From Haloferax sp. Atlit-12N (GTDB lineage Archaea; Halobacteriota; Halobacteria; Halobacteriales; Haloferacaceae): a DNA stretch of 64,000 bases. The stretch covers positions 1,178,001 to 1,242,000 of the forward strand of contig NZ_PSYW01000001.1 in NCBI RefSeq assembly GCF_003383095.1, in the 5' to 3' direction. Shown one piece after another: positions 21,861 through 52,636 of this stretch. Below the pieces are notes generated by a model. That model was given only the letters and a program-made list of their open reading frames with translations, had not been told where the DNA came from and searched no databases. Every line of letters starts with the position of its first letter. Position 1 is the first letter of the stretch. Position numbers and translations under genes: made by a program.

Positions 21861-21933
21861 GGGACCGTGGGTTAGCCTGGTATACTTCGGGCCTTGGGTG
21901 CCCGTGACCCCGGTTCAAATCCGGGCGGTCCCA
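21861..21933 (+). tRNA. tRNA-Pro (TGG), integration site
   Basis: Acceptor GGGACCG pairs with CGGTCCC, with A73 at 21933. The anticodon stem CGGGC/GCCCG holds loop CTTGGGT with anticodon TGG. The T arm is CCCGG-TTCAAAT-CCGGG. There is no encoded CCA and no intron. The gene stays intact because the element restores its 3' end at attL. Confidence 0.96.
21911..21933 (+). other. attL: 3' end of tRNA-Pro
   Basis: The last 23 bases of the tRNA (CGGTTCAAATCCGGGCGGTC plus CCA) recur at 52614-52636 with two mismatches, next to the integrase gene. This is the classic tRNA-3'-end integration footprint. Confidence 0.85.
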
Positions 21934-23030: not shown

Positions 23031-23266
23031 GCTTCACTCGACAGATTTGCGAGTGGGAGGAACGACCGTACACGAGCTACGATCGTCGCCGTGCAGTCGT
23101 TCAACACCGGGTCGTCTTAGAGGTCTACCGAGACGGGAACAGCGACATTCGCCACGAGGTCCGCTCAGACTACGAAGAAGCCAAAGAGTCTGCCGAGTGG
23201 TCGCTCTACGAAGCCTACGAGATTCGCGGTAGCCGTGTCGATTACGTCGGAGGTGACCGCCGGTGA
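23027..23266 (+). CDS. small charged protein, unknown
   Basis: The 79-residue protein (MSFTRQICEWEERPYTSYDR at its start) is rich in charged and aromatic residues and has no recognised domain. The GTG start is preceded by GGAGGTGA, and an identical 21-base block (23012-23032 and 23248-23268) spans the start of this gene and of the next one, so both upstream proteins end in GGDRR. Confidence 0.65.
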   Translation: MSFTRQICEWEERPYTSYDRRRAVVQHRVVLEVYRDGNSDIRHEVRSDYEEAKESAEWSLYEAYEIRGSRVDYVGGDRR

Positions 23267-25395
23267 GCGACGATACCGGCGAGGTCGTCGCGGAGTTCTC
23301 TGTCCTCGACGACGCGGACGTCGTCACATCGAGCGACGAGGACACCATCGCGTCCGCAGTTGACAACGGATACGAGCCCGGCTCGACCATCGACGACGAC
23401 CCCGAAGACGTCGAGTTCGAGATGCCCGAGTTCGTCGCGGCGTGTCGCTACTGCCAGACGAGCTTCGAGACCGAGGAAGCCGCGCTCGAACACGAGTGGA
23501 ACTGCGACCTGGAGCCGACTGGCGAGTGTCGCTTCTGTGGCGGTACCCACATCCGGAAGGACGTTCGCGAGGACCACTTCTACGCCTGCTCGGAAGCGGA
23601 GGCGCACGAGCGGAAGCTGAAACGCGGCTCCCGCGCTCGGACGATGCGCGGACAGGATTCGAAGACCGCCGTCTCGGGCCTTCGGAAGTTCCTCCTCCCG
23701 CAGCCGCACGAGTTCTCGGCGTACCTGAAGTGGGCCGAATCGCTGTCGACGTACTTCGGCCTCATCTCGCTGTACAAGATGCACGACTTCGAGGAGTACG
23801 GGAACCTCCGCGCCGGCATCGAGTTCGGCGGAGAGGAGTGGAACCTCGAATTCGGTTACGCCGACGATCCGAAAATTGCGGTTCCCGACGAAGATACCGA
23901 CCTCGGTCGGTGGGATTGGCGTCTCGAGGGCGATACTGTGCCCGAGTTCATGATACGACTCTATCCCGAGACGTATCCGTCGTTCCAAGAGGCGAAGGAC
24001 GACAACCGAAAGCGTGCGTACTTCCGCGTCCGTCCGCGCTGGCCCGGTGTGAAGTCGAAGAGCGGGAAGAACATCTCGAATCCGCACGACATCCTCGGCG
24101 TCGACGTCGAGACGCGAGGGAGCTACTTCGAGTTTGACGAGTATCCGAGTCTCCTGTTCGAGGCGCTGCGCGAGCTTCGCGAGCGCCAAGACGAGTTCGG
24201 TTGGAACTCGTTCACTGGAATCGACTACGACGCGCTCCATCCCGAAAAGGTACACAAGTCGTCGAACGTGACCGACGCCGAGCTGTACGTCCGCGCGAAG
24301 AAGGGCGAGACCGGTCGGGTGTTCGCGCTCGACGGGACGCTTCACCGCATCGCACTCATCCTCGGCGGCGAGCGCAGCGGCTATTCGAAGACTGTTCGCG
24401 ACGACCGCGTCTGCGAAGGCTGGTATCACACGTCCACGGTCTGCGCGATGCGCGCGGCCGAGATCGTCGGTGGTCACGAACTCCCGAAGGAGTTCAAGCA
24501 CTACCACGTGAAGAACCCGGACGCTGTCGCTGGAACACCGCTGGAGAACCCGAAGATCGGTGTTTCCTATCAGAACTCGCTGTACGACGACACCCTCCGG
24601 TTCCACGACGTCGACCAGCTCCACAAGGAACTCGACGAGGCGCTGCTGAACGTTCTGAACTGGTCGGACCTGCCGGTGACGCCTGACCACCAGATGTACG
24701 TCGCGGACGACTACTTCGCCGTCGAGGGCGAGGCGCGAATGGCGAAGGTCGCCGACAATCCGCTCCCGCGTATCGCTCAGCAGCAGGAGGACGAGATTCG
24801 GATGTTCGCCACCGCGGGGAACCTCGTGGAGACGGACGTCGCGATCACCGAGGAGCTGGTGACTGACGGCGGCCACATCTCGCCGGCCGACCTCGCCGAG
24901 CGGATCGGCGTCCACATCGATACCGTCTATCGCGCGCTGAAGCGACTCGGTGATCTCGTGATTCACGATTACGGCAGCGTCGAGCTGGCCTCGAAACACA
25001 TCGCGAACGGGATCGTCGAACACATCGAGTCCGCGCGCCGGACTGTCGAAGCCACGATCGAGGAGGCTACCGACGATATCATCCGCGCCGACACTTACGG
25101 CCACGAGAACGACCCGTGGTCGCGATGGCTTCGGAACTACGTCGTCGATCGGAAGGATGGCGAGTACCGCGAGCGCCTCGAACTCGACGATCAACCTGAC
25201 CGCAACGACATCCGTCGGATCATCCGCTCGGGTGCGATGACCTGGGCGGAGGTCACCGGCAACGACATCGAAGACTTCGCTCGTGAGTTCGAGGTCGAGG
25301 CCCGTGCCCGCAGCTCGGGTCGTCGGTTCGAATACCTCCTCGGTGATCTGCTCGGTCTCGTCGGCTCGAAGAACGTCGTCACGCTCGCCAGATAG
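23263..25395 (+). CDS. large zinc-finger and winged-helix protein of the element
   Basis: The 710-residue protein has two N-terminal zinc-finger-like segments (CRYCQTSFETEEAALEHEWN and CRFCGGTHIRKDVREDHFYA). A large central region without a known motif follows, then a winged helix-turn-helix at about 540-575 (ISPADLAERIGVHIDTVYRA) and an acidic helical C-terminus. It looks like a DNA-binding replication, partition or recombination protein and is the largest gene of the left arm. Large proteins of this general build occur in other haloarchaeal elements as I recall; the role is unknown. Confidence 0.75.
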   Translation: MSDDTGEVVAEFSVLDDADVVTSSDEDTIASAVDNGYEPGSTIDDDPEDVEFEMPEFVAACRYCQTSFETEEAALEHEWNCDLEPTGECRFCGGTHIRKDVREDHFYACSEAEAHERKLKRGSRARTMRGQDSKTAVSGLRKFLLPQPHEFSAYLKWAESLSTYFGLISLYKMHDFEEYGNLRAGIEFGGEEWNLEFGYADDPKIAVPDEDTDLGRWDWRLEGDTVPEFMIRLYPETYPSFQEAKDDNRKRAYFRVRPRWPGVKSKSGKNISNPHDILGVDVETRGSYFEFDEYPSLLFEALRELRERQDEFGWNSFTGIDYDALHPEKVHKSSNVTDAELYVRAKKGETGRVFALDGTLHRIALILGGERSGYSKTVRDDRVCEGWYHTSTVCAMRAAEIVGGHELPKEFKHYHVKNPDAVAGTPLENPKIGVSYQNSLYDDTLRFHDVDQLHKELDEALLNVLNWSDLPVTPDHQMYVADDYFAVEGEARMAKVADNPLPRIAQQQEDEIRMFATAGNLVETDVAITEELVTDGGHISPADLAERIGVHIDTVYRALKRLGDLVIHDYGSVELASKHIANGIVEHIESARRTVEATIEEATDDIIRADTYGHENDPWSRWLRNYVVDRKDGEYRERLELDDQPDRNDIRRIIRSGAMTWAEVTGNDIEDFAREFEVEARARSSGRRFEYLLGDLLGLVGSKNVVTLAR

Positions 25396-25695: not shown

Positions 25696-26401
25696 TTACT
25701 CCAAAGCGAGGTGAGCCATCGCCCTGGAGGTGACGTGGTCCGGCACGGGTCCGAGGTAGTTTCGACGGAACGTCTCGCGCCCGGAATCGGTCATCGCCCA
25801 CCCACCCCACGCCATCGTCAACTCCTCAGCGATAGGGACACCCTCGAACGCGAGTGAGTAGAACGTATCCGTCGCCCACGTTCGTCGAAGGTCGTGCATC
25901 CCGAGGTCGTGCCACCGGTCGTCGTCGAGGTCGTCGGCCAACTGTTCTCGCGCTTCGGCAATCCAATCGCGAAGCGAGCGAGTCGAGACATCGACCACCG
26001 GTTCGTCAGCTCGCAATCGCGCCGCGGACTTCAGGTACTTCACGCGCTCGCGGAGACTCCGCGAGACCGGCGTGTCCCGAGCGCCGCTCTTGCCGTCGGG
26101 GACACTCAGTCGCCACTTCCCCTCATCGTCGAGGCGTTCGAAGTGTCGCGGCTCCACGTTTCGGACTTCGTCGCTGCGGAGACCGTGGAGTGCGAGGTCC
26201 AGAGCGATACGCCGCCGTGGGTATTCGTCCTCGACGAGCGAGAGGAGTTTCTCTTGTTCCGCGCGTGAGAGCCACAGTCGCTTTCCTGACTTCGATGGAT
26301 ATGGGCGTACCTGCATGGTTCCAGTTCTGGTAGTTATCTCTGTTTCCCGGAACCTTAGCTAGTTCGGTCGGGCTGATCTACTCGGAAAAGACGTCGATTA
26401 C
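25687..26401. repeat. 13-bp direct repeats flanking the second recombinase gene
   Basis: AGACGTCGATTAC occurs exactly at 25687-25699 and 26389-26401. On the minus strand each copy starts inside a stop codon (TAATCGACGTCT), at the end of the recombinase gene and at the end of the last micro-gene. Confidence 0.7.
25696..26316 (-). CDS. tyrosine recombinase, catalytic domain only
   Basis: The 206-residue protein has the full catalytic set of tyrosine recombinases: Arg47 in LALHGLRSDEVRNV, Lys76 in PDGKSGARD, His141-x-x-Arg144 in MHDLRRTWATD, a His/Trp position near W170 and Tyr187 in FRRNYLGPVP. It lacks the usual N-terminal SAM-like core-binding domain (whole integrases are about 300-400 residues). 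It may be a XerC-like resolvase or inversion enzyme. A 13-bp direct repeat flanks the gene. Confidence 0.8.
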   Translation of the reverse strand: MQVRPYPSKSGKRLWLSRAEQEKLLSLVEDEYPRRRIALDLALHGLRSDEVRNVEPRHFERLDDEGKWRLSVPDGKSGARDTPVSRSLRERVKYLKSAARLRADEPVVDVSTRSLRDWIAEAREQLADDLDDDRWHDLGMHDLRRTWATDTFYSLAFEGVPIAEELTMAWGGWAMTDSGRETFRRNYLGPVPDHVTSRAMAHLALE

Positions 26402-26466
26402 GCGTCGTCGAGGAGCATTTGGTTACGAGAATAGTCGGTTCTCGGAAGCGGTCGCACCGAACTCAT
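26398..26466 (-). CDS. 22-residue micro-protein, last of the micro-gene operon
   Basis: The frame begins MSSVRPLPRTDYSRNQ and ends LLDDA. It starts in an ATGA overlap with the stop of the preceding membrane micro-gene. It is too short to judge by composition. The overlap is the only support. Confidence 0.35.
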   Translation of the reverse strand: MSSVRPLPRTDYSRNQMLLDDA

Positions 26467-26600
26467 AAGCGGACCTCCCAGTACCCGAACCGCTCGACGA
26501 ACACCATGTAGTAAATCACGAGCAGAATTATCGCAACGAAGACAAGCGCGAAGAGTCCCCATGGCAACGAACTGAACACCGACGCCGAGTCGAGCGTCAT
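26463..26600 (-). CDS. 45-residue single-span membrane protein
   Basis: The frame reads MTLDSASVFSSLPWG, then one strong membrane helix (LFALVFVAIILLVIYYMVF) and a short charged tail VERFGYWEVRL. The start overlaps the preceding stop (ATGA). Confidence 0.6.
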   Translation of the reverse strand: MTLDSASVFSSLPWGLFALVFVAIILLVIYYMVFVERFGYWEVRL

Positions 26601-26752
26601 TCAAACAACTCCTCAGTCAGAACTTCGTCGTAGTCACAGAACTCGTAGACACAGGTTGCCCTGACTGCTGTCTCTTCTCTGTCGAGCTCTTCATAGTCGA
26701 ACCTGTGCCCGAACAATTTGTGCTGAACTACACCGAGGAGTCCATCAGACAC
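26597..26752 (-). CDS. 51-residue acidic soluble micro-protein
   Basis: The frame starts with GTG (MSDGLLGVVQHKLFGHRFDY) and continues with EELDREETAVRATCVYEFCD and an acidic tail. It has two Cys and is the only clearly soluble longer member of the operon. It overlaps both neighbours by a few bases. Confidence 0.5.
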   Translation of the reverse strand: MSDGLLGVVQHKLFGHRFDYEELDREETAVRATCVYEFCDYDEVLTEELFE

Positions 26753-26933
26753 TGTGCATCACCACGCTGGCAACACCAACCCAAAGAAACGTGCCTAAAA
26801 TGGCGCAAGCCCACTGTCTCCAGTCCGTCGCGCCAGTTGGCCCGACCATTTCTCCCGCGAAGTGTAGCGGGCCGAGTAATACCATGAAGACCCATCCCAC
26901 GGCATGGTAGACACGGGATTGGAGCTTAGACAT
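26745..26933 (-). CDS. 62-residue two-span membrane protein
   Basis: The frame begins MSKLQSRVYHAVGWVFMVLL and has two hydrophobic helices separated by a short polar turn with TGATDWRQW. The start overlaps the preceding gene by eight bases (ATGTCTAA). Confidence 0.6.
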   Translation of the reverse strand: MSKLQSRVYHAVGWVFMVLLGPLHFAGEMVGPTGATDWRQWACAILGTFLWVGVASVVMHSV

Positions 26934-27129
26934 GGCCAGGGAACCCTCCTGCGACGCCCCAGCCGACGAGAGCGATTGTCGAACCGACAAGTAGCGTACC
27001 CGTGTACCACTGCGGCACTCCGAGGTCGACGAAAAGACTCGCGAACGCGACACCGACTGAGAACAGGCACGTGAAGCCGATAACAATCCCAAGGTGCCAG
27101 AAGTCGATTCGCTGGTTTTCCTCAGTCAA
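26926..27129 (-). CDS. 67-residue two-span membrane protein
   Basis: TTG is the likely start (MTEENQRIDFWHLGIVIGFT), because an in-frame stop lies just upstream and the only other candidate is CTG. Two hydrophobic helices flank a loop with DLGVPQWYTG. The start overlaps the upstream stop as TTGACTGA. Confidence 0.55.
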   Translation of the reverse strand: MTEENQRIDFWHLGIVIGFTCLFSVGVAFASLFVDLGVPQWYTGTLLVGSTIALVGWGVAGGFPGHV

Positions 27130-27307
27130 TTTCAGTCACCTCGACACGTGGGTGCAGGAAGTAAATACCCCAAACTGCGAGAAATAGCACACCAGACCCA
27201 CCTGCGACCTCGATTGAGATTAGCTTAGCGACCGCCACCAACACGAGAACGGTCACAAGCATCGCAACACCCAGTTGATTGCTTAGGTCAGAGGAATTAG
27301 AGTTCAT
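27122..27307 (-). CDS. 61-residue two-span membrane protein
   Basis: The protein reads MNSNSSDLSNQLGVAMLVTV, then a second hydrophobic helix GVLFLAVWGIYFL and tail HPRVEVTEID. ATG 27307 is preferred over GTG 27316 because GAGGTG lies six bases upstream. Confidence 0.6.
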   Translation of the reverse strand: MNSNSSDLSNQLGVAMLVTVLVLVAVAKLISIEVAGGSGVLFLAVWGIYFLHPRVEVTEID

Positions 27308-27407
27308 CTTCGACACCTCTCGCGTCTGCTTTGAGGATACAGATCATGCACGCACCGTCGCCGTCGACGTGGGGGCAATCCACAGTACCCTCTTGCTCGT
27401 TAGACAT
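27297..27407 (-). CDS. 36-residue putative zinc micro-protein
   Basis: The frame starts MSNEQEGTVDCPHVDGDGAC and continues MICILKADARGVEDEL. Three Cys and one His (DCPH, ACMIC) could form one zinc site. It overlaps both neighbours. Confidence 0.55.
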   Translation of the reverse strand: MSNEQEGTVDCPHVDGDGACMICILKADARGVEDEL

Positions 27408-27681
27408 CCGGCTCATCCTCCATTAGCTCGTAGAACCGACACGGGACCGTGTAGCCGGCGACGAACGCGACAAGAGCAATCGAGATGCCTGCCATGTAGC
27501 CGAATCTCGCGGCTCTCAGCCAGAACACCGGTGCGTCCGTCAGGAACATCAGGCTCGAAACCGACACCAGCAACAAGCCTGCATAAGAGAAGCCGATGCA
27601 GTACCCTCGACATCCCTCGGCGTACGGCATCTGGACCAACAGTTCTCCGTCGTCGTCTTCGATGACTTTAGCCTCGCTCAT
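27400..27681 (-). CDS. 93-residue two-span membrane protein
   Basis: A soluble N-terminus (MSEAKVIEDDDGELLVQMPY) with two Cys (EGCRGYC) precedes two hydrophobic helices (about 27-48 and 60-80) and a short acidic tail. The start overlaps the stop of the next upstream micro-gene (ATGA). Confidence 0.65.
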   Translation of the reverse strand: MSEAKVIEDDDGELLVQMPYAEGCRGYCIGFSYAGLLLVSVSSLMFLTDAPVFWLRAARFGYMAGISIALVAFVAGYTVPCRFYELMEDEPDV

Positions 27682-27803
27682 TTGAACATCACCCAGAACT
27701 CGTTGAGGACGATGGTTCCAAAGAACAGAATCATCAGTAGAATCAGGAAGATTGGGAACGACGTCGCCTGCGCGCGTGTAGACTCATCGAACTCCTCGCT
27801 CAA
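27678..27803 (-). CDS. 41-residue single-span membrane protein
   Basis: A likely TTG start gives MSEEFDESTRAQATSFP and one membrane helix (IFLILLMILFFGTIVLNEFW). It overlaps the upstream gene by about 20 bases. The start is uncertain; the frame is supported by the strong membrane helix and the ATGA coupling downstream. Confidence 0.45.
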   Translation of the reverse strand: MSEEFDESTRAQATSFPIFLILLMILFFGTIVLNEFWVMFK

Positions 27804-27972
27804 CTCTGACTTTGACGAAAGCGAGGACGAGCGCCATCGCGACCAGGGCGACCACGAGGTGGACGTCTTCCGACAAACCCAGCCAGTCGGCGACGACGTC
27901 GACGACAAGGACGACCGCGACGATGTTGACGAACGTCTCGATGACCGGGACGGTCGGGTCGGCATCAGTCAT
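27784..27972 (-). CDS. 62-residue two-span membrane protein
   Basis: The frame starts MTDADPTVPVIETFVNIVAV; helices are at about 10-28 and 38-54, with a basic tail KVRVERGVR. The start overlaps the upstream stop by eight bases (ATGACTGA). Confidence 0.6.
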   Translation of the reverse strand: MTDADPTVPVIETFVNIVAVVLVVDVVADWLGLSEDVHLVVALVAMALVLAFVKVRVERGVR

Positions 27973-28201
27973 CGCCCTCCTCGATACCAACATTGACGAG
28001 ATCGTCGAACGCGTAGGTTGCAGCTCCACTCGAGGAGACCAGCGTGACGACGAATCCGACGATAGCGAATGTGCCCGTCACAGTCGGTGCGATGCCGGAT
28101 TGATAGCCGGTGTAGCACAGTACGATCACGCAGACAGACACGTACATCGTCACTTGGTACTGCCAACGCTCGAACCGTAGTGAGAGACTCGACGAACTCA
28201 T
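27965..28201 (-). CDS. 78-residue two-span membrane protein, first of the micro-gene operon
   Basis: The ATG at 28201 gives MSSSSLSLRFERWQYQVTMY. Two hydrophobic helices follow, and the protein ends in the acidic FDDLVNVGIEEGDD. It heads eleven overlapping leftward micro-genes. A TATA box and a GC palindrome lie upstream. Confidence 0.65.
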   Translation of the reverse strand: MSSSSLSLRFERWQYQVTMYVSVCVIVLCYTGYQSGIAPTVTGTFAIVGFVVTLVSSSGAATYAFDDLVNVGIEEGDD

Positions 28202-28256: not shown

Positions 28257-28298
28257 GCGCGCGCAGGCGCGCGCATAGCGCGAGTGCGCAAATATAGG
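28257..28298 (-). promoter_or_regulatory. promoter and GC palindrome of the micro-gene operon
   Basis: On the minus strand CCTATATT (28291-28298) is a TATA box. About 26 nt downstream, at the predicted transcript start, lies a palindrome of two GCGCGCGC blocks separated by AG (28257-28274). Confidence 0.55.
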
Positions 28299-28345: not shown

Positions 28346-29194
28346 TCAGGCTTCCTCCGCGAATCGCTCTAAGTCGACGTCCGGTCTGTTTTCCAGAATC
28401 AATTTCACCTTCTTCGCATTGCGCATCGAAGCACCGTAGTGAACCTCGATGAGTTCAGACGCGATGTAGGGCTGCTTGTTGCCGCCGTGGATCGACACCA
28501 CGCGGCCGATCCCCTCGTCGACGATCTCTTGGGCGAGTTCGCGCGGGTCGAGGTCGAGTTCTGACTCGTCCTCGTCGTCGTCAGGGTCGATTCGCTCATT
28601 CTTTTTCTTCTTGTCACGGCGTTTGAACACCTCCCAGAGTTCCGTGCCTTCGAGCGATGGGAAGGAGTCTCGCATATCCGGCTCCGGCCACTCGCCGGTC
28701 TCCCATTTTTCGTCGAGTGACTCACGGGAGTACCCACGGAGTTTCCCCCGCTGGTTTCGCGGGATTTTGAGTGCCGCGAGTGCTCGACGTTTTGCGAGCG
28801 TTGTCGGGATATCATCGTACCCCTGATACCCCAACATGATGAAATACTCGCTCGTCCGAACGTCGAGGAGATCTTTTTCGGCATCCTTCTGTTCGCTATC
28901 CATTGCATCGCGCTTGTAGAGTGCACGTGCCGCGTCCATGACCGGGATTGCAGACCGTTCTGGCGCGGTTGCCATGGTGCGCTTGAACTCGTCTCTCTCA
29001 CCCCAGACGACGCGGTCCAAGACTGACTCGGGCGTCGGGTCGAGGCCGCGAACATCTTGCCAGAGCCACGTCAGTTGGTTCATCAGCGTCGACTTCCCGT
29101 CCCCTTCCTCTGCGATGACTAGGATGATTGCGTCGTACTGTTTCTCGATTCGCCGTTCGTGGATTTTCTCAACCCATCGCTGAATTTTCTCCAT
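28346..29194 (-). CDS. P-loop NTPase of the element
   Basis: The 282-residue protein has Walker A AEEGDGKS at residues 28-35, after the strand DAIILVI. A hydrophobic strand (YFIMLGYQGYDD) may carry the Walker B or sensor function. A Lys-rich linker (KRRDKKKKNERID) leads to an acidic C-terminal helical domain. The ATG at 29194 is preferred over GTG 29203 because of the upstream GAGGTGA. It is the only recognisable nucleotide-driven enzyme near the structural cluster and could power genome packaging or transfer. This role is inference. Confidence 0.72.
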   Translation of the reverse strand: MEKIQRWVEKIHERRIEKQYDAIILVIAEEGDGKSTLMNQLTWLWQDVRGLDPTPESVLDRVVWGERDEFKRTMATAPERSAIPVMDAARALYKRDAMDSEQKDAEKDLLDVRTSEYFIMLGYQGYDDIPTTLAKRRALAALKIPRNQRGKLRGYSRESLDEKWETGEWPEPDMRDSFPSLEGTELWEVFKRRDKKKKNERIDPDDDEDESELDLDPRELAQEIVDEGIGRVVSIHGGNKQPYIASELIEVHYGASMRNAKKVKLILENRPDVDLERFAEEA

Positions 29195-29204
29195 CTTCGT
29201 CACC

Positions 29205-30084: not shown

Positions 30085-30351
30085 ATGCTTGACTTCATCA
30101 AGATCACCGCCAAATCGGCGGTCGCAAACGCCCGGTCGGAAGACCGAGCACAGACCAACCTCGTCGGACTATTCATCGGCCTGATGATTGCGGCTATCGT
30201 CGCAATTCAGGTCTTCATCCCGGTCGTCAACGATGCAATCGCGTCGTCGAACGTTTCCGGAACCGAAGCAACGATTCTCGGACTGCTGCCGCTCTTCGCG
30301 GCGCTGCTCCTTCTGATCGCGCTCGCGTCGCCCCTCATGCGTCGCATCTAA
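30085..30351 (+). CDS. 88-residue two-span membrane protein, first of the structural cluster
   Basis: A soluble N-terminus (MLDFIKITAKSAVANARSED) precedes helix 1 (LVGLFIGLMIAAIVAIQVFI), a short outer loop with a sequon (ASSNVSG), helix 2 (LLPLFAALLLLIALAS) and a basic end MRRI. It has the best Shine-Dalgarno of the cluster, so it may be an abundant particle membrane protein. This is inference. Confidence 0.7.
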   Translation: MLDFIKITAKSAVANARSEDRAQTNLVGLFIGLMIAAIVAIQVFIPVVNDAIASSNVSGTEATILGLLPLFAALLLLIALASPLMRRI

Positions 30352-39979: not shown

Positions 39980-40963
39980 ATGAGCGACCCGGAACAGATT
40001 GTCAAACTTCTCGTGTCTGCGCTCATCGTCGCAGCGCTGATTCCAGCGTTCATGGGAATTAGTGGTCCGAGTGGCGAGGTCAGCTTCGAACCAACGCTCG
40101 GAAATCACACCGTCGATAAAACGACCCGCGAGATACCCGGAAGCGTCAACGTCGAGGCGACGACTGGCAACGCGCTCTACTTCGACGGCAGCGCCTCGGT
40201 CTCTTCGAACGCGGGCTCAAACATGACCAACGGGTCGTGGACAGTCTGCACGCTGGCGCAGCTCGATGAGAGCGCGGACGCCAACGCGACGTACTCCGCG
40301 TTCGCTCATGACAACGCGTCAGTTCTCATCGACTACGACCACGGCAAGTGGGCCGCGTACTACGACAACGGCTCCGCAGACGCCCGTGCGACTATCGATG
40401 CACCGTCGCCGAAAGACGGGCTGACGCCAGTCTGCGCGCGCTACGACGAATCATCTGAAGAACTCGTCGTCTCTCGCGACGGTCAAGTCTCGTCACCGGA
40501 TGTACTCGACGCCAGTCCCAACACGCGGAACGCGACGTTCGCGTGGGTTGGGACGCTCGACGAGGTCCGGATCATCGGCGAGGACGTCAACAACTCGACC
40601 CTCACGGCGTACGCGAACGACCCGGTCCAACCGTTGTCGGTCAACCACCTCGGTCGAATGATGTTCGACGAGGGGAGCGGCTCGACCTCGACCGTCTACT
40701 ACGACGACGGTGACGCGAACCTCTATCGCACGAGCTGGACGGGCGGCGTCGAAGGACCGAATCTCAAGCGTGGAGTCGATTACCAGCTGTTCGGTGACCC
40801 ATTCACCGTGAAGGTCCTCTCGGGGAGCTACCTCGAAGGAGCACCAGTAGTCTGGGTGTCGTGGGGATCTGGCCTCCCACTCGACATCATGGACATTCTG
40901 GGTCTGCTGATGGCCCTGCTGCTGGTTGTCGCGTTCGGCAACAAAATCATGGAGGCCATGTGA
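39980..40963 (+). CDS. LamG-like membrane-anchored surface protein
   Basis: The 327-residue protein has an N-terminal membrane helix (VKLLVSALIVAALIPAFMGI). A jelly-roll (LamG/concanavalin-like) domain spans about 45-215 (ALYFDGSASVSSNAGSNMTN; WVGTLDEVRIIGEDVNNSTL). A compact module with VYYDDGDANL, GVDYQLFG and WVSWGSG comes next, and a C-terminal membrane helix ends the protein. It is probably a surface spike component. The next gene starts inside its stop codon. Confidence 0.75.
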   Translation: MSDPEQIVKLLVSALIVAALIPAFMGISGPSGEVSFEPTLGNHTVDKTTREIPGSVNVEATTGNALYFDGSASVSSNAGSNMTNGSWTVCTLAQLDESADANATYSAFAHDNASVLIDYDHGKWAAYYDNGSADARATIDAPSPKDGLTPVCARYDESSEELVVSRDGQVSSPDVLDASPNTRNATFAWVGTLDEVRIIGEDVNNSTLTAYANDPVQPLSVNHLGRMMFDEGSGSTSTVYYDDGDANLYRTSWTGGVEGPNLKRGVDYQLFGDPFTVKVLSGSYLEGAPVVWVSWGSGLPLDIMDILGLLMALLLVVAFGNKIMEAM

Positions 40964-42813
40964 TGGACGAGAATCAGAACGAGAGAAATCAACAGTCAGA
41001 CAGCGAGGAGAGTAGCTCGTCGGTCCCCGTGACTCGACGCCAAGTCATCGGCGCGCTTGCAAGCGCTGGTGTGTTCGGCTCGATCGCGAGCGGAGCGAGT
41101 TCGAACGAGGGTGACGGAATCACCGAGATAGGAGGCGGTTCGATGGCATCAGAAATAGGAGAACTACGAATCCAGCAGTTCCAAGGAACGTTCGCAGAAC
41201 GACCAGACGCAGGCGTGGCCGACCGGGTCTACATCGTCGACGATCCAGGCCACGCCGAACACGGGGCAGTTTACTACGACGACGGCAGCTCGTGGACACT
41301 CCAAGATCGGAAGGTCGGAAAGCTAAGTGCAGAGAAGGTAGATAACACCGTCAGAGTTGCGGCATTTGATGGGGAGACAGGGGGGGAGAAAATACAGAGC
41401 GCCCTCGATGAAGCATCAACGCTTTCGGGGACGACAGAGGTGGTTGTGAGTGGTCGGGGACCAGATAGCCTGTCAAGTTCTGGAGCACTCTATTCAAGCG
41501 GATGGCGGCATAGCGGGCTAACAATCTCGGAGAACACCGTCCTGCGGCTTGTTGGTGGGGCATATCTCTTCTTGGCAGATGGGTCTGACAGTCGCTCGAT
41601 AACAAATGCCGACCACACCAATCAAACGGAGAATATCCACATTATCGGGGACGGGAGTGCACACATCGACGGAAACGCGGCTAACCAAAATCCCACCAAT
41701 TCCCCCGACCGTCTTGGGATTCAATTCGTTCGTATGTCCAATATCTCGGTGCATAATGTGGCCATCGGACCAACGCACGCATGGGCTTTAACGGGGGCGA
41801 TTGTTGACGATTTCAGTATCAGTGATATTAAATTCGCACAAGACGGGAGTACCGCAAACCAAGACGGCGTACATCTGGTTGGTGCGTGCTCGAACGGCGA
41901 CATTTACCACATCCGTGGAGTCACCCATGACGATAGCATCTCTCTCATCGCACACGACCAAGACGATGGCATGAAAGAGATTACTGGCGGCGGCAGCATC
42001 ACAGACATCAACATCGCGGACGTGAGATGCACCGGTGTTGGTGCCAAAGGCGTTGTTAACCTCGCATGCGGAGACGGAAACGACATGAATGGCATCTCTA
42101 TCGACCATATCCATGCACGTCCGGGGACGGGCGGCTCAGTGCTTCAAATCGCAGGCGGGCCGTTCATTGAGTCTCGCGATGGAGTTCTGCCAACGACGGA
42201 TGAGTTCACAGGCATCTCCGCATCGCATCTCACGCGAGCAGACGGGGACCAGTCTGACCTCGTCCGGATTGAAAATAATATTGGGGTCCTTAGTCTCAGC
42301 GACCTGTCTTACACGGGCGATGCGTTCGAGCTGGTTCGGCAATGGCAGGGCTACACCTGCGACACGCTCAAAGTTGACGGCGCGACCTTCGAGTCCGTCA
42401 ATGGGACCGGAAATATGTTCAATCTTCAAGATGAGATAATCAATCTGCATCTAAGTGGCCTCACATCACGCCAGACCGGCAGTACCAACCGTGTGTTGTT
42501 TGACGGAAGTGGGACGGGGATAATCAACAACGGGACCGTCCGTGATATAGAAGCAGAGATAGACGGAACTGTTGTCGAACTTCCCGGAACTGCGAATATC
42601 ACCTTATCGGATGTTGGCGGGGATATTAGGGGTCAAGTGGTATTCACTTCGCCATCTGGCCTAAAAGTTGATGGAGGCCTCCCGCCGATTGATGTGACCA
42701 CACTTCCAACCGTGCGAGGATCACAAGCATACCACGACGGGACAACAGGGACCGAGGGGCCTGCTCATTCCGACGGGACCGATTGGATTGACGCTACGCA
42801 AACCACTCTGTGA
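40963..42813 (+). CDS. Tat-exported right-handed beta-helix protein
   Basis: The 616-residue protein has a Tat signal peptide (VTRRQVIGALASAGVFGSIA, about residues 20-45). A short module at about 90-125 contains VYYDDGSSWTLQDRK. A long region with parallel beta-helix periodicity follows (for example ISVHNVAIGPTHAWALTGAI; IHIIGDGSAHIDGNAANQNP). There is no lipobox and no membrane anchor. The coding sequence after about 41340 is clearly more AT-rich than the first part. It may be a receptor-binding or surface-degrading spike. Confidence 0.75.
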   Translation: MDENQNERNQQSDSEESSSSVPVTRRQVIGALASAGVFGSIASGASSNEGDGITEIGGGSMASEIGELRIQQFQGTFAERPDAGVADRVYIVDDPGHAEHGAVYYDDGSSWTLQDRKVGKLSAEKVDNTVRVAAFDGETGGEKIQSALDEASTLSGTTEVVVSGRGPDSLSSSGALYSSGWRHSGLTISENTVLRLVGGAYLFLADGSDSRSITNADHTNQTENIHIIGDGSAHIDGNAANQNPTNSPDRLGIQFVRMSNISVHNVAIGPTHAWALTGAIVDDFSISDIKFAQDGSTANQDGVHLVGACSNGDIYHIRGVTHDDSISLIAHDQDDGMKEITGGGSITDINIADVRCTGVGAKGVVNLACGDGNDMNGISIDHIHARPGTGGSVLQIAGGPFIESRDGVLPTTDEFTGISASHLTRADGDQSDLVRIENNIGVLSLSDLSYTGDAFELVRQWQGYTCDTLKVDGATFESVNGTGNMFNLQDEIINLHLSGLTSRQTGSTNRVLFDGSGTGIINNGTVRDIEAEIDGTVVELPGTANITLSDVGGDIRGQVVFTSPSGLKVDGGLPPIDVTTLPTVRGSQAYHDGTTGTEGPAHSDGTDWIDATQTTL

Positions 42814-42822
42814 TATTGCTAT

Positions 42823-43719
42823 CTAGACAGCGTAGCCTAAATCCTTCAATCGCTCATTTAACTCCTCCTCGTCGACTTCAGCCATTTCCTCTGGCGGACT
42901 TCCTGTTATATCCTTCCTTGAGTTGGACTCGCAGACAAACCATGGTACACGCGTGAGCGAGTCATGGTACAGTTTTGTTGGGTGTCCGTAACTTTTCACA
43001 GGGATTGGAGAAGTCCGTTCGCCGAGTAGCTCTCCGTGATCGGAAGTTATAACCGTTCTACCATTCAATTCTGAGACTAATTCGGAGACATACTCAAGAA
43101 CTAGTTCTAAATTCTCGTTATATGCTCTCCAAAGGTCATCGTCGGAGATCCCCCTATTCGACATAATTGCCTGAAGGTTCTTCTGAGCATGTCCAAATTT
43201 TCTGCGCCCGAAATCCCCGAGGTATGGTTTGTGTGGCTGGACATAGTGTATCACAAGCCGCTTATTTGGATATCTTTCAGCGGTTTCTAATGCTTCATCT
43301 GTGACTCTTTTGGGGGATATTCCGCCTCCTTTTTCACCCAAATCATCGTTGTCAACCAAACAATTGATTTGGTGCAATTCCGTGTTGAGTTCATCCCATA
43401 GTCTAATGATCCATCCATTTGCAGTCACGTAGACTGTATCGTGAAGTCTTTCCCGCGTGAAGTTGGTCCGCAAAAATTGAGGTGTCGATGTTCCTTTTGA
43501 AGTTTTAGATTCGAGTGAACCTTCTAAGTCAATCATTTTCTGAAGGGCATCGAAACGGCAGGCATCTAGGATCACAAGGTTATCCCAATCTTCTTCAAAT
43601 ATGTTTATCCCAGTTGGATTCTCGTCACCAATAGACCAGCTATTATAACGTTTGTTTAGCGCAATTAGCCCCATTGAAGGACTCTTCAGTAAAGTTTTGG
43701 CAGCTTGAAGTGGGTTCAT
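42823..43719 (-). CDS. alkaline-phosphatase/sulfatase superfamily protein (cargo)
   Basis: The 298-residue protein from the ATG at 43719 (MNPLQAAKTLLKSPSMGLIA) has AlkP-superfamily motifs: NLVILDACRFDAL near the N-terminus, VIHYVQPHKPYLGD, and metal ligands in TVITSDHGELLGE and YGHPTKL. Such proteins cleave sulfate, phosphate or phosphoglycerol esters; haloarchaeal relatives are often linked to surface glycans. An earlier in-frame ATG at 43794 exists. Codon use is much more AT-rich than its neighbours, suggesting recent transfer. Confidence 0.72.
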   Translation of the reverse strand: MNPLQAAKTLLKSPSMGLIALNKRYNSWSIGDENPTGINIFEEDWDNLVILDACRFDALQKMIDLEGSLESKTSKGTSTPQFLRTNFTRERLHDTVYVTANGWIIRLWDELNTELHQINCLVDNDDLGEKGGGISPKRVTDEALETAERYPNKRLVIHYVQPHKPYLGDFGRRKFGHAQKNLQAIMSNRGISDDDLWRAYNENLELVLEYVSELVSELNGRTVITSDHGELLGERTSPIPVKSYGHPTKLYHDSLTRVPWFVCESNSRKDITGSPPEEMAEVDEEELNERLKDLGYAV

Positions 43720-43889
43720 TAGCAAATGTATTATAGAGAATTGATAAAAGAGTTGCCACAATAAGGGATTATTCTGTAGTCTCAATGAATCCACTTAGCG
43801 CCTGATTCACGACTGAGAACTTGAAAGAAAGAACATGATCCAGACGTTCCGGTCTAAAATTATATTTTGTCGGAGAGTTACCACATCGT
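43720..43889. promoter_or_regulatory. AT-rich intergenic region with leaderless promoter
   Basis: This 170-bp AT-rich segment separates the divergent cargo gene and the gene at 43890. AAATTATATTTT (43855-43866) is centred about 29 nt before that ATG. Nothing else is recognised. Confidence 0.5.
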
Positions 43890-48409: not shown

Positions 48410-48594
48410 GCACCGGAAACACGGTGTCCGGCTCGTTCGACGACGACCGCAAGCAGTCGCTCGCGCTCGTCGAGGGCGACGACGTCTGCGCGGCGGTCTT
48501 CATCGGTCCCGATGCGACTGACCGCGAGGTCGCCGACCTCCTGGAAGACATCCGCGCCGAGGTCTCGCAACTCACTGGGGGTGATCTGCGATGA
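48406..48594 (+). CDS. 62-residue small acidic protein
   Basis: The protein starts MSTGNTVSGSFDDDRKQSLA and has a short beta strand (VCAAVFIGPDATDREVADLL) and an amphipathic end. No motif is visible. It overlaps both neighbours. The next gene is preceded by GGGGGTGATC. Confidence 0.55.
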   Translation: MSTGNTVSGSFDDDRKQSLALVEGDDVCAAVFIGPDATDREVADLLEDIRAEVSQLTGGDLR

Positions 48595-50144
48595 GCGATT
48601 CAACGCACGAGGATCGCTCATCGGGTCCAGTCACGGCTGTTGATCTGTTCTGTGGCGCGGGCGGTCTATCGACCGGCCTCGCACTCGCCTGCGAAGAACT
48701 CGACCGCGAGGTCGAACTGACGGCGGTGAACCACTGGTCAAAGGCCATCGAATCGCACAAGCAGAACCACCCGTGGGCGACCCACCTGAACGCGAAGGTC
48801 GAAGAACTCCACCCGCCGGATGTCGCACCCGGCGACGGCCCGGTCGACCTGCTCATCGCCGCGCCCGAGTGTACGCACTTCAGCATCGCTCGGGGCGGCA
48901 AGCCCGTCAACGAACAGTCGCGGGCGAGTCCGTGGCACGTCGTGGACTGGCTGGAAAAGCTCGACGTACAGAACTTCCTCGTCGAGAACGTCCCCGAACT
49001 CAAGTCGTGGGGCCCGGTCGACGACAACGGGTCGCCGAGTCGCAACGGCGACATCTTCGAAGCGTGGGTCAACACGCTCCACGCGCTCGGCTACTCGGTC
49101 GACTGGCGAGTGCTGAACGCCGCGGACTACGGCGACGCGACCTCGCGACGGCGGCTGTTCGTCGTCGGCCGGAAGGGCAAGCGCGCGGAGTTCCCCGCGC
49201 CGACCCACTCGGAGAACGGCGTCGACGGGACCGACGAGTGGCGGCCGGCATCGGAGGTCATCGACTGGTCCGACCGCGGCGAGTCCATCTGGGAGCGGTC
49301 GCGACCGCTCGTGAACAACACGATGCAACGCATCGCCGAAGGCATCCGCCGGCACTGCCATGACGACCTCGCACCCTTCGCGGACGTTATCGACGACCTC
49401 GAAAAGTCCGAGGTCAGCGCGATGCAAGCGGACATCGTCGACGCCGGCGACGTGCCGGCAGTTGTCGAACAGCGGTGTGAGCCGTTCCTTGTCAAATACT
49501 ACGGCACGTCAACGGCGAAGCCGGTGAGTGAGCCGATGGACACCATCACGGCGAACGGCGGCAAGTACGCGCTTTGCACGCCCTACGTCCTCGGTCAGCA
49601 CGGCGGGTCGGTCGCCCGCGACGTTGACGAGCGCCCGCTTCCGACCATCGCGACGCGCGGCGCTATCGGCCTCTACCAGCCCGAAGCGTTCGTCCTGCCG
49701 CGGAACATGGTTCACGGTGGCCTCCACTCCAACGGCACCTACACGCCCGAGGAGCGCCCGCTGCACACGGTCACGGCCAACAACCACGACGGTCACGTGG
49801 TGACGCCGTACCTCATCGAATACTACGGCAACGGCCGGGCGCAGTCGCTCGACGACCCGCTTCCGACCGTGACGACGAAAGGCCGCTTCGCCTTGGTCGT
49901 CCCCGAACTCTACCCGCTCGGCCTCGACATCCGCTTCCGGATGCTCCAGCCGCGCGAACTCGCCGCGGCGATGGGCTTCCCCGAGGAGTACGAGCTGGTC
50001 GGCAACAAGACCGAGACGACCAAGCAAATCGGAAACGCCGTCCCGGTCAACCTCGCGAAGAACCTCGTGAACCAACTCCTCACGGGAGACGCGCCGTCGC
50101 TCCACACGTTCGCCCAAGAACAGGGGGTCGAAGCCGATGACTGA
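48591..50144 (+). CDS. DNA (cytosine-5) methyltransferase
   Basis: The 517-residue protein has motif I DLFCGAGGLSTGLALA, the catalytic cysteine C94 in APECTHFSIARGG (a PEC variant of the usual PCQ), motif VI ENVPE, motif VIII-like DATSRRRLFVVGRKGKRAEF, and motifs IX-X at the end (QIGNAVPVNLAKNLVNQLL). The target-recognition region holds several repeats around TIT/TVT. No restriction nuclease is adjacent, so it is probably a solitary protective or regulatory methylase. Confidence 0.87.
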   Translation: MSDSTHEDRSSGPVTAVDLFCGAGGLSTGLALACEELDREVELTAVNHWSKAIESHKQNHPWATHLNAKVEELHPPDVAPGDGPVDLLIAAPECTHFSIARGGKPVNEQSRASPWHVVDWLEKLDVQNFLVENVPELKSWGPVDDNGSPSRNGDIFEAWVNTLHALGYSVDWRVLNAADYGDATSRRRLFVVGRKGKRAEFPAPTHSENGVDGTDEWRPASEVIDWSDRGESIWERSRPLVNNTMQRIAEGIRRHCHDDLAPFADVIDDLEKSEVSAMQADIVDAGDVPAVVEQRCEPFLVKYYGTSTAKPVSEPMDTITANGGKYALCTPYVLGQHGGSVARDVDERPLPTIATRGAIGLYQPEAFVLPRNMVHGGLHSNGTYTPEERPLHTVTANNHDGHVVTPYLIEYYGNGRAQSLDDPLPTVTTKGRFALVVPELYPLGLDIRFRMLQPRELAAAMGFPEEYELVGNKTETTKQIGNAVPVNLAKNLVNQLLTGDAPSLHTFAQEQGVEADD

Positions 50145-52613: not shown

Positions 52614-52636
52614 CGGTTCGAAACCGGGCGGTCCCA
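52614..52636 (+). other. attR: second copy of the tRNA-Pro 3' end
   Basis: CGGTTCGAAACCGGGCGGTC plus CCA differs at two positions from the tRNA 3' end at 21911-21933. It marks the right boundary of the element. Confidence 0.85.

Follow-up and report, generated by a model that had tools for sequence, protein, structure and literature searches.

A 30.7-kb provirus in a 4.0-Mb haloarchaeal genome, from the same genus as Haloferax mucosum, carries a leftward chain of ten small overlapping genes, m1–m10, next to its tyrosine recombinase gene. The explanation that we find best for the whole, with a probability of about 0.4, is an accessory cargo operon with coupled translation, the products of which would act in the host membrane in favour of the provirus. 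The provirus spans positions 21921–52636 of the window, the 64-kb stretch of DNA that was analysed. It is bounded by an att repeat at tRNA-Pro, running from the 3′ end of that gene (21861–21933) to a 13-bp copy at 52624–52636.

A chain of ten overlapping micro-genes

The chain of small overlapping frames occupies the gap between the stop of the ATPase gene (28346) and the recombinase gene (26316), and the accepted gene set extends from 26463 to 28201 (Table 1). Eight of the ten products are predicted by hydropathy to be membrane proteins, in agreement with the first-pass annotation, which had described the products as mostly membrane proteins. In addition to m2 and m4, with two hydrophobic segments each, at least one segment passes a strict hydropathy cut-off of 1.6 in m1, m3, m6, m7, m8 and m10, and a second segment in m1, m6, m7 and m8 is a reading by eye. 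The remaining two products, m5 and m9, are predicted to be soluble. No paralogy was found among the ten. The first-pass annotation had counted eleven frames, ten of which are retained here; the eleventh, 26398–26604, was dropped, as it has a non-coding GC pattern (0.69/0.50/0.44) and also enters the conserved non-coding element that precedes the recombinase gene.

Table 1 Micro-genes m1–m10 and the features around them.
Feature	Position	Strand	Length (codons or aa)	Overlap with preceding micro-gene (bases)	Remarks
P-loop ATPase	28346–29203	−			Flanks the slot
GC palindrome and TATA-like box	28258–28297	−			Palindrome 28258–28281; box 28286–28297
m1	27965–28201	−	78		Membrane protein; heads the chain; codon score positive; a close Shine-Dalgarno motif is not required of the first gene
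m2	27784–27972	−	62	8	Two hydrophobic segments; AGGAGG upstream; top codon score
m3	27678–27803	−	41	20	One hydrophobic segment; TTG start uncertain, without a Shine-Dalgarno match; codon score positive
m4	27400–27681	−	93	4	Two hydrophobic segments; YxExCRxYxxGF and PxxFYELxE in common with L015 10826–11104
m5	27297–27407	−	36	8	Soluble; CPH...CMIC, a possible metal site; GGAGG upstream of the start
m6	27122–27307	−	61	11	Membrane protein; GAGGTG upstream; codon score slightly negative
m7	26926–27129	−	67	8	Membrane protein; TTG start; GAGGTGA upstream
m8	26745–26933	−	62	8	Membrane protein; AGGAGG upstream; codon score negative
m9	26597–26752	−	51	8	Soluble; GTG start; GGTGAT upstream
m10	26463–26600	−	45	4 (ATGA)	One hydrophobic segment; AGGAG upstream
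Conserved non-coding element	26317–26450	−	about 130 bp		Precedes the recombinase gene and forms the left edge of the slot
Tyrosine recombinase	25696–26316	−	206		95.6% identical to LSV-48N; flanks the slot

Signatures of probable coupled translation

Three kinds of evidence (shuffles, Shine-Dalgarno matches and codon scores) support the first-pass reading of the region as a chain of translated genes for tiny membrane proteins. The chain contains 11 linked frames, a length that is the maximum of the whole 64 kb and is equalled by 1 of 500 dinucleotide shuffles, although starts were picked partly with overlaps in view and chain length is hence not independent of that choice. The commonest length in the shuffles is 2–3, and chains of at least seven arise in 3 of the 500. 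Of the 9 internal starts, 8 are preceded by a Shine-Dalgarno match of 5 nt or longer, as opposed to 11.7% of control starts (103 further start codons on that strand within the region). The observed mean match exceeded that of every one of 20,000 random draws, and the motif played no part in the choice of starts. Codon scores are positive in all micro-genes except m6 and m8, and both other frames of the same strand score negatively for all ten. The weak point is the m2/m3 junction, with its TTG start and no Shine-Dalgarno motif. Taken together, the frames are strongly indicated by these signals to be real and serially overlapping, with re-initiation signals, and in all likelihood they are translated; judging from the sequence, m1–m10 very probably form a genuine coupled operon.

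The same evidence bears on whether the chain could be a product of decay, what is left of a larger membrane-protein gene, or of several, split by frameshifts. The weak codon scores in two of the ten frames and the near lack of relatives (see below) point that way, but decay would not create re-initiation motifs at the right distance upstream of eight of nine starts, the one relative of m4 equals it in length and ends, and no larger relative was found in the genome searches described below. We consider this origin highly improbable.

Translation of overlapping genes in Haloferax volcanii proceeds by termination-reinitiation; the Shine-Dalgarno motif has no activity there in first initiation but often raises re-initiation at overlaps, without being strictly essential (PMC6728339). 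Because the motif in Haloferax serves re-initiation and not first initiation, the chain looks like a relay of ribosomes along one mRNA, with nine stop/start overlaps, eight of them with a motif inside the upstream gene. The gene pairs studied in H. volcanii (PMC6728339, PMC10666635) likewise have short overlaps and Shine-Dalgarno motifs within the upstream gene, whereas the provirus links ten genes in series and its commonest overlap is of 8 bases, not 4 as in those pairs. Overlaps of 8 bases make up five of the nine in the chain and 4 of 36 among the annotated genes of the LSV-48N virus and the Halomicrobium element described below, where 4-base overlaps dominate. Of the gene pairs lying −8 to +10 nt apart, 45% code for subunits of a complex, compared with 5.6% of distant pairs (PMC10666635). 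Both of these studies used gene pairs; the chain is a compact natural setting in which coupling of translation in series could be examined in haloarchaea.

A mosaic provirus

Outside its middle, the provirus closely follows LSV-48N (PP151251; PMC12714723). The left block, including the DUF7845 Rep, is 92–97% identical to that virus, the Orc-like gene 80%, the right block 60–93% and the second integrase 94.5%; the Rep, recombinase, integrase and Orc genes are collinear at 80–97% identity. The middle of the provirus (approximately 26.4–44 kb) is not LSV-48N-like, and its structural genes are 20–26% alike or unalignable rather than homologous throughout at the level of more than 50% identity by which genes are linked in the figure of the LSV-48N paper (PMC12714723). 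The ATPase and structural genes are instead collinear, at 23–68% identity, with those of a repeated element of Halomicrobium urmianum, with matches in two further genomes too. By its gene content, the provirus is a mosaic with a swapped structural module, in which LSV-48N-like outer genes surround a module of the Halomicrobium type. On the H. urmianum plasmid (NZ_CP084093), the related element occurs twice in tandem, approximately 23.8 kb apart (L002 1–30831), and a third copy lies on the chromosome.

Within the structural module, an 88-aa two-helix protein encoded at 30085–30351 gives a profile match to VP1 (PDB 7XDI, chain A; E 1.6e-6), the profile consisting of four members, the protein and three relatives. 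We take this PDB entry to be the SSV19 particle. The stretch that the profile and VP1 have in common is like TGTxATxLxLxP, and the product has the two-helix hairpin of a VP1-type coat protein of a spindle-shaped virus; a fold search with a model of the coat protein returned nothing significant. Because of the LSV-48N outer genes, the Halomicrobium-type middle and the VP1 match, we read the element as a spindle-shaped-virus provirus of mosaic composition. LSV-48N itself was reported to have no sequence match to known capsid proteins (PMC12714723), and the coat-protein match links a group of haloarchaeal proviruses to spindle-shaped viruses by sequence.

The ATPase, for which the structure model is of low confidence, is annotated as DnaA-like in LSV-48N but is probably not the replication initiator, a role that fits the DUF7845 protein at 23263–25395 (PMC13107129).

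A variable slot between the ATPase and recombinase genes

The micro-genes sit in a slot between the ATPase and tyrosine recombinase genes, the content of which is strongly indicated to vary between related elements. LSV-48N and related Haloferax proviruses, with outer genes 60–97% identical to those of the provirus, have the order ATPase, slot, recombinase and Rep in common with it, but all of m1–m10 are absent from them and the structural module is 20–26% alike where alignable. The slot holds one 170-aa membrane protein in LSV-48N, eleven CRISPR-type repeats at a spacing of approximately 66 bases (L019 7539–8243) and a methyltransferase in the provirus of Haloferax mucosum, and a PMT_2-type glycosyltransferase in Halogeometricum limi. 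Two further genomes (G330 and G108) have FkbM methyltransferases in the slot, and a third (G270) has them downstream of its ATPase gene. The H. urmianum element, despite its matching structural module, has no similar micro-gene chain at this place, and the interval between its ATPase and recombinase genes contains unrelated, oppositely oriented genes. We interpret the interval as a cargo slot because its contents differ between relatives, and m1–m10 are probably accessory cargo. The earlier impression that the chain is unlike an ordinary accessory region is thus not borne out: it fills the interval that serves as the accessory slot in this spindle-shaped-virus provirus and that holds other cargo in relatives. 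Overlapping small-gene cargo operons of archaeal viruses are already known, and m1–m10 add a variant.

The variation of the slot also bears on a role in the virion. The micro-genes could encode virion membrane or egress proteins, in the form of small hydrophobic hairpins that become part of the particle or aid its exit; spindle-shaped coat proteins are small two-helix proteins, of which the provirus has one, and the genes for viral membrane proteins of LSV-48N are very highly transcribed (PMC12714723). The chain, however, stands outside the structural operon, LSV-48N has been shown to be shed (PMC12714723) with just the one membrane protein in its slot, and the Halomicrobium element combines a matching structural module with a slot that lacks the chain. 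We regard this alternative as unlikely, and the same observations on LSV-48N and Halomicrobium disfavour particle release, one of the possible roles first suggested for the chain, as a core function. Given this variation in cargo, and given that LSV-48N forms particles in the absence of the chain, we place the operon outside core virion assembly.

Upstream of m1 are a TATA-like box and a GC palindrome, which the first-pass annotation had noted and assigned to the operon. Both exist, but the same TATATTTGCGC and palindrome occur downstream of the ATPase gene of the Halomicrobium element, where co-oriented small genes are absent, and they may therefore not belong to the operon. An RNA fold of this leader stretch is no better than those of shuffles (z −0.77). 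At the left edge of the slot, the conserved element upstream of the recombinase gene is present in at least seven elements from several genera and includes a palindrome, CGAGAA-n5-TATTCTCGTAACC; it is possibly a recombination site or an operator.

Relatives of the micro-genes

Only m4 has a recognisable relative in the slot, a 92-aa protein encoded directly after the ATPase gene in a provirus remnant of genome G035 (L015). The two proteins share both motifs listed in Table 1 and have the same length and ends. The match is weak by score (E 0.03–0.1; local-shuffle p 0.006), but the relationship is credible because of the position and the end motifs. Next after the m4-like gene, and overlapping it by 8 bases, comes a gene for a membrane protein; beyond that lies a transposase-like gene. 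The remnant is thus like the chain in its m4-type gene after the ATPase, its 8-base overlap and its Shine-Dalgarno motifs, but it has two genes only before the transposase gene and lacks the other nine micro-genes. Other slot comparisons, at p 0.01–0.05, are not significant after approximately 170 comparisons. Apart from m4, the micro-genes are absent from relatives rather than broken.

Wider searches drew on a sample of one genome per species, 391 from the class and 170 from the family. Genome searches with single proteins, made with m4, m8 and m9, found no further relative of m4 and none of m9 in 391 genomes, nor any with an m4 profile in 61, and the inspected matches of m8 in 170 genomes lie in or beside unrelated host genes. 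At the DNA level, matches in the 170 genomes of the family were confined to short low-complexity stretches and the element that precedes the recombinase gene. Nothing was found in plasmids with m1 and m4, or in viral contigs with m4, m1, m8 and the m4 profile, and a phage search with m7 gave chance matches only. No product has a match above the curated cut-offs of Pfam, PHROGs, NCBIfam or PADLOC, and the weak matches of m1 to DUF4386 (E 0.006) and of m7 to phrog_33483 (E 0.001) are of a kind usual for short hydrophobic proteins. By these searches and within this sample the micro-genes are almost entirely orphan, and such searches easily miss short hydrophobic proteins.

The lack of family matches extends to a possible regulatory or stabilising cassette, in which small toxic membrane peptides and soluble partners would act in the manner of a toxin-antitoxin system, or in which the recombinase or provirus maintenance would be controlled from the membrane. 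The arrangement of small hydrophobic beside small soluble proteins, transcribed towards the recombinase gene, is consistent with such a cassette, and Haloferax has many micro-proteins that act in stress and regulation (PMC6562870, PMC10716476). However, no toxin-antitoxin family match was found among the products, eight membrane proteins are many for a toxin-antitoxin pair, and m5 and m9, with CPH...CMIC and CVYEFC only, are without the two C(P)XCG motifs of Haloferax zinc-finger micro-proteins. A cassette of this kind seems to us even less likely than a role in the virion or in egress.

Possible working and role of the operon

An accessory cargo operon with coupled translation could work as follows. 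Ribosomes would enter the mRNA at a single site near m1 and move along it from gene to gene by termination-reinitiation, and the serial re-initiation would link the amounts of the eight small membrane proteins and the two soluble ones. Less firmly, the products may assemble in the host membrane, perhaps as one complex, and may alter the cell to the advantage of the provirus, most plausibly against competing viruses. Such viruses come into view as a target because the slot elsewhere holds a CRISPR array as well as enzymes for a possible modification of surface sugars. A role in competition or exclusion, suggested by this company in the slot alone, is a tentative proposal, and the best PADLOC match to an anti-phage defence or exclusion family (E 0.03) is not credible. 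More broadly, exclusion of other elements or alteration of the membrane is possible. The fullest version is a ten-gene relay on one mRNA, with serial Shine-Dalgarno-assisted re-initiation in an organism where the motif has no part in first initiation. Eight new membrane micro-proteins would be made in coupled amounts, combine into a single viral complex in the archaeal membrane and block competing viruses. As a whole this version is unlikely. A slot that is filled in one element by a CRISPR array and in others by possible sugar-modifying enzymes or by membrane micro-proteins is a place to seek superinfection exclusion in archaea.

Two other regions of the provirus may be mentioned. At 40963–43794, in the stretch of lowest GC content (48%), the structural module ends with the gene of a 616-aa protein, the start of which is twin-arginine-like, and a leftward gene similar to sulfatases (PF00884). 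At 48591–50144, a 517-aa DNA methyltransferase-like gene lies between genes that are adjacent in LSV-48N, which marks a second cargo position.
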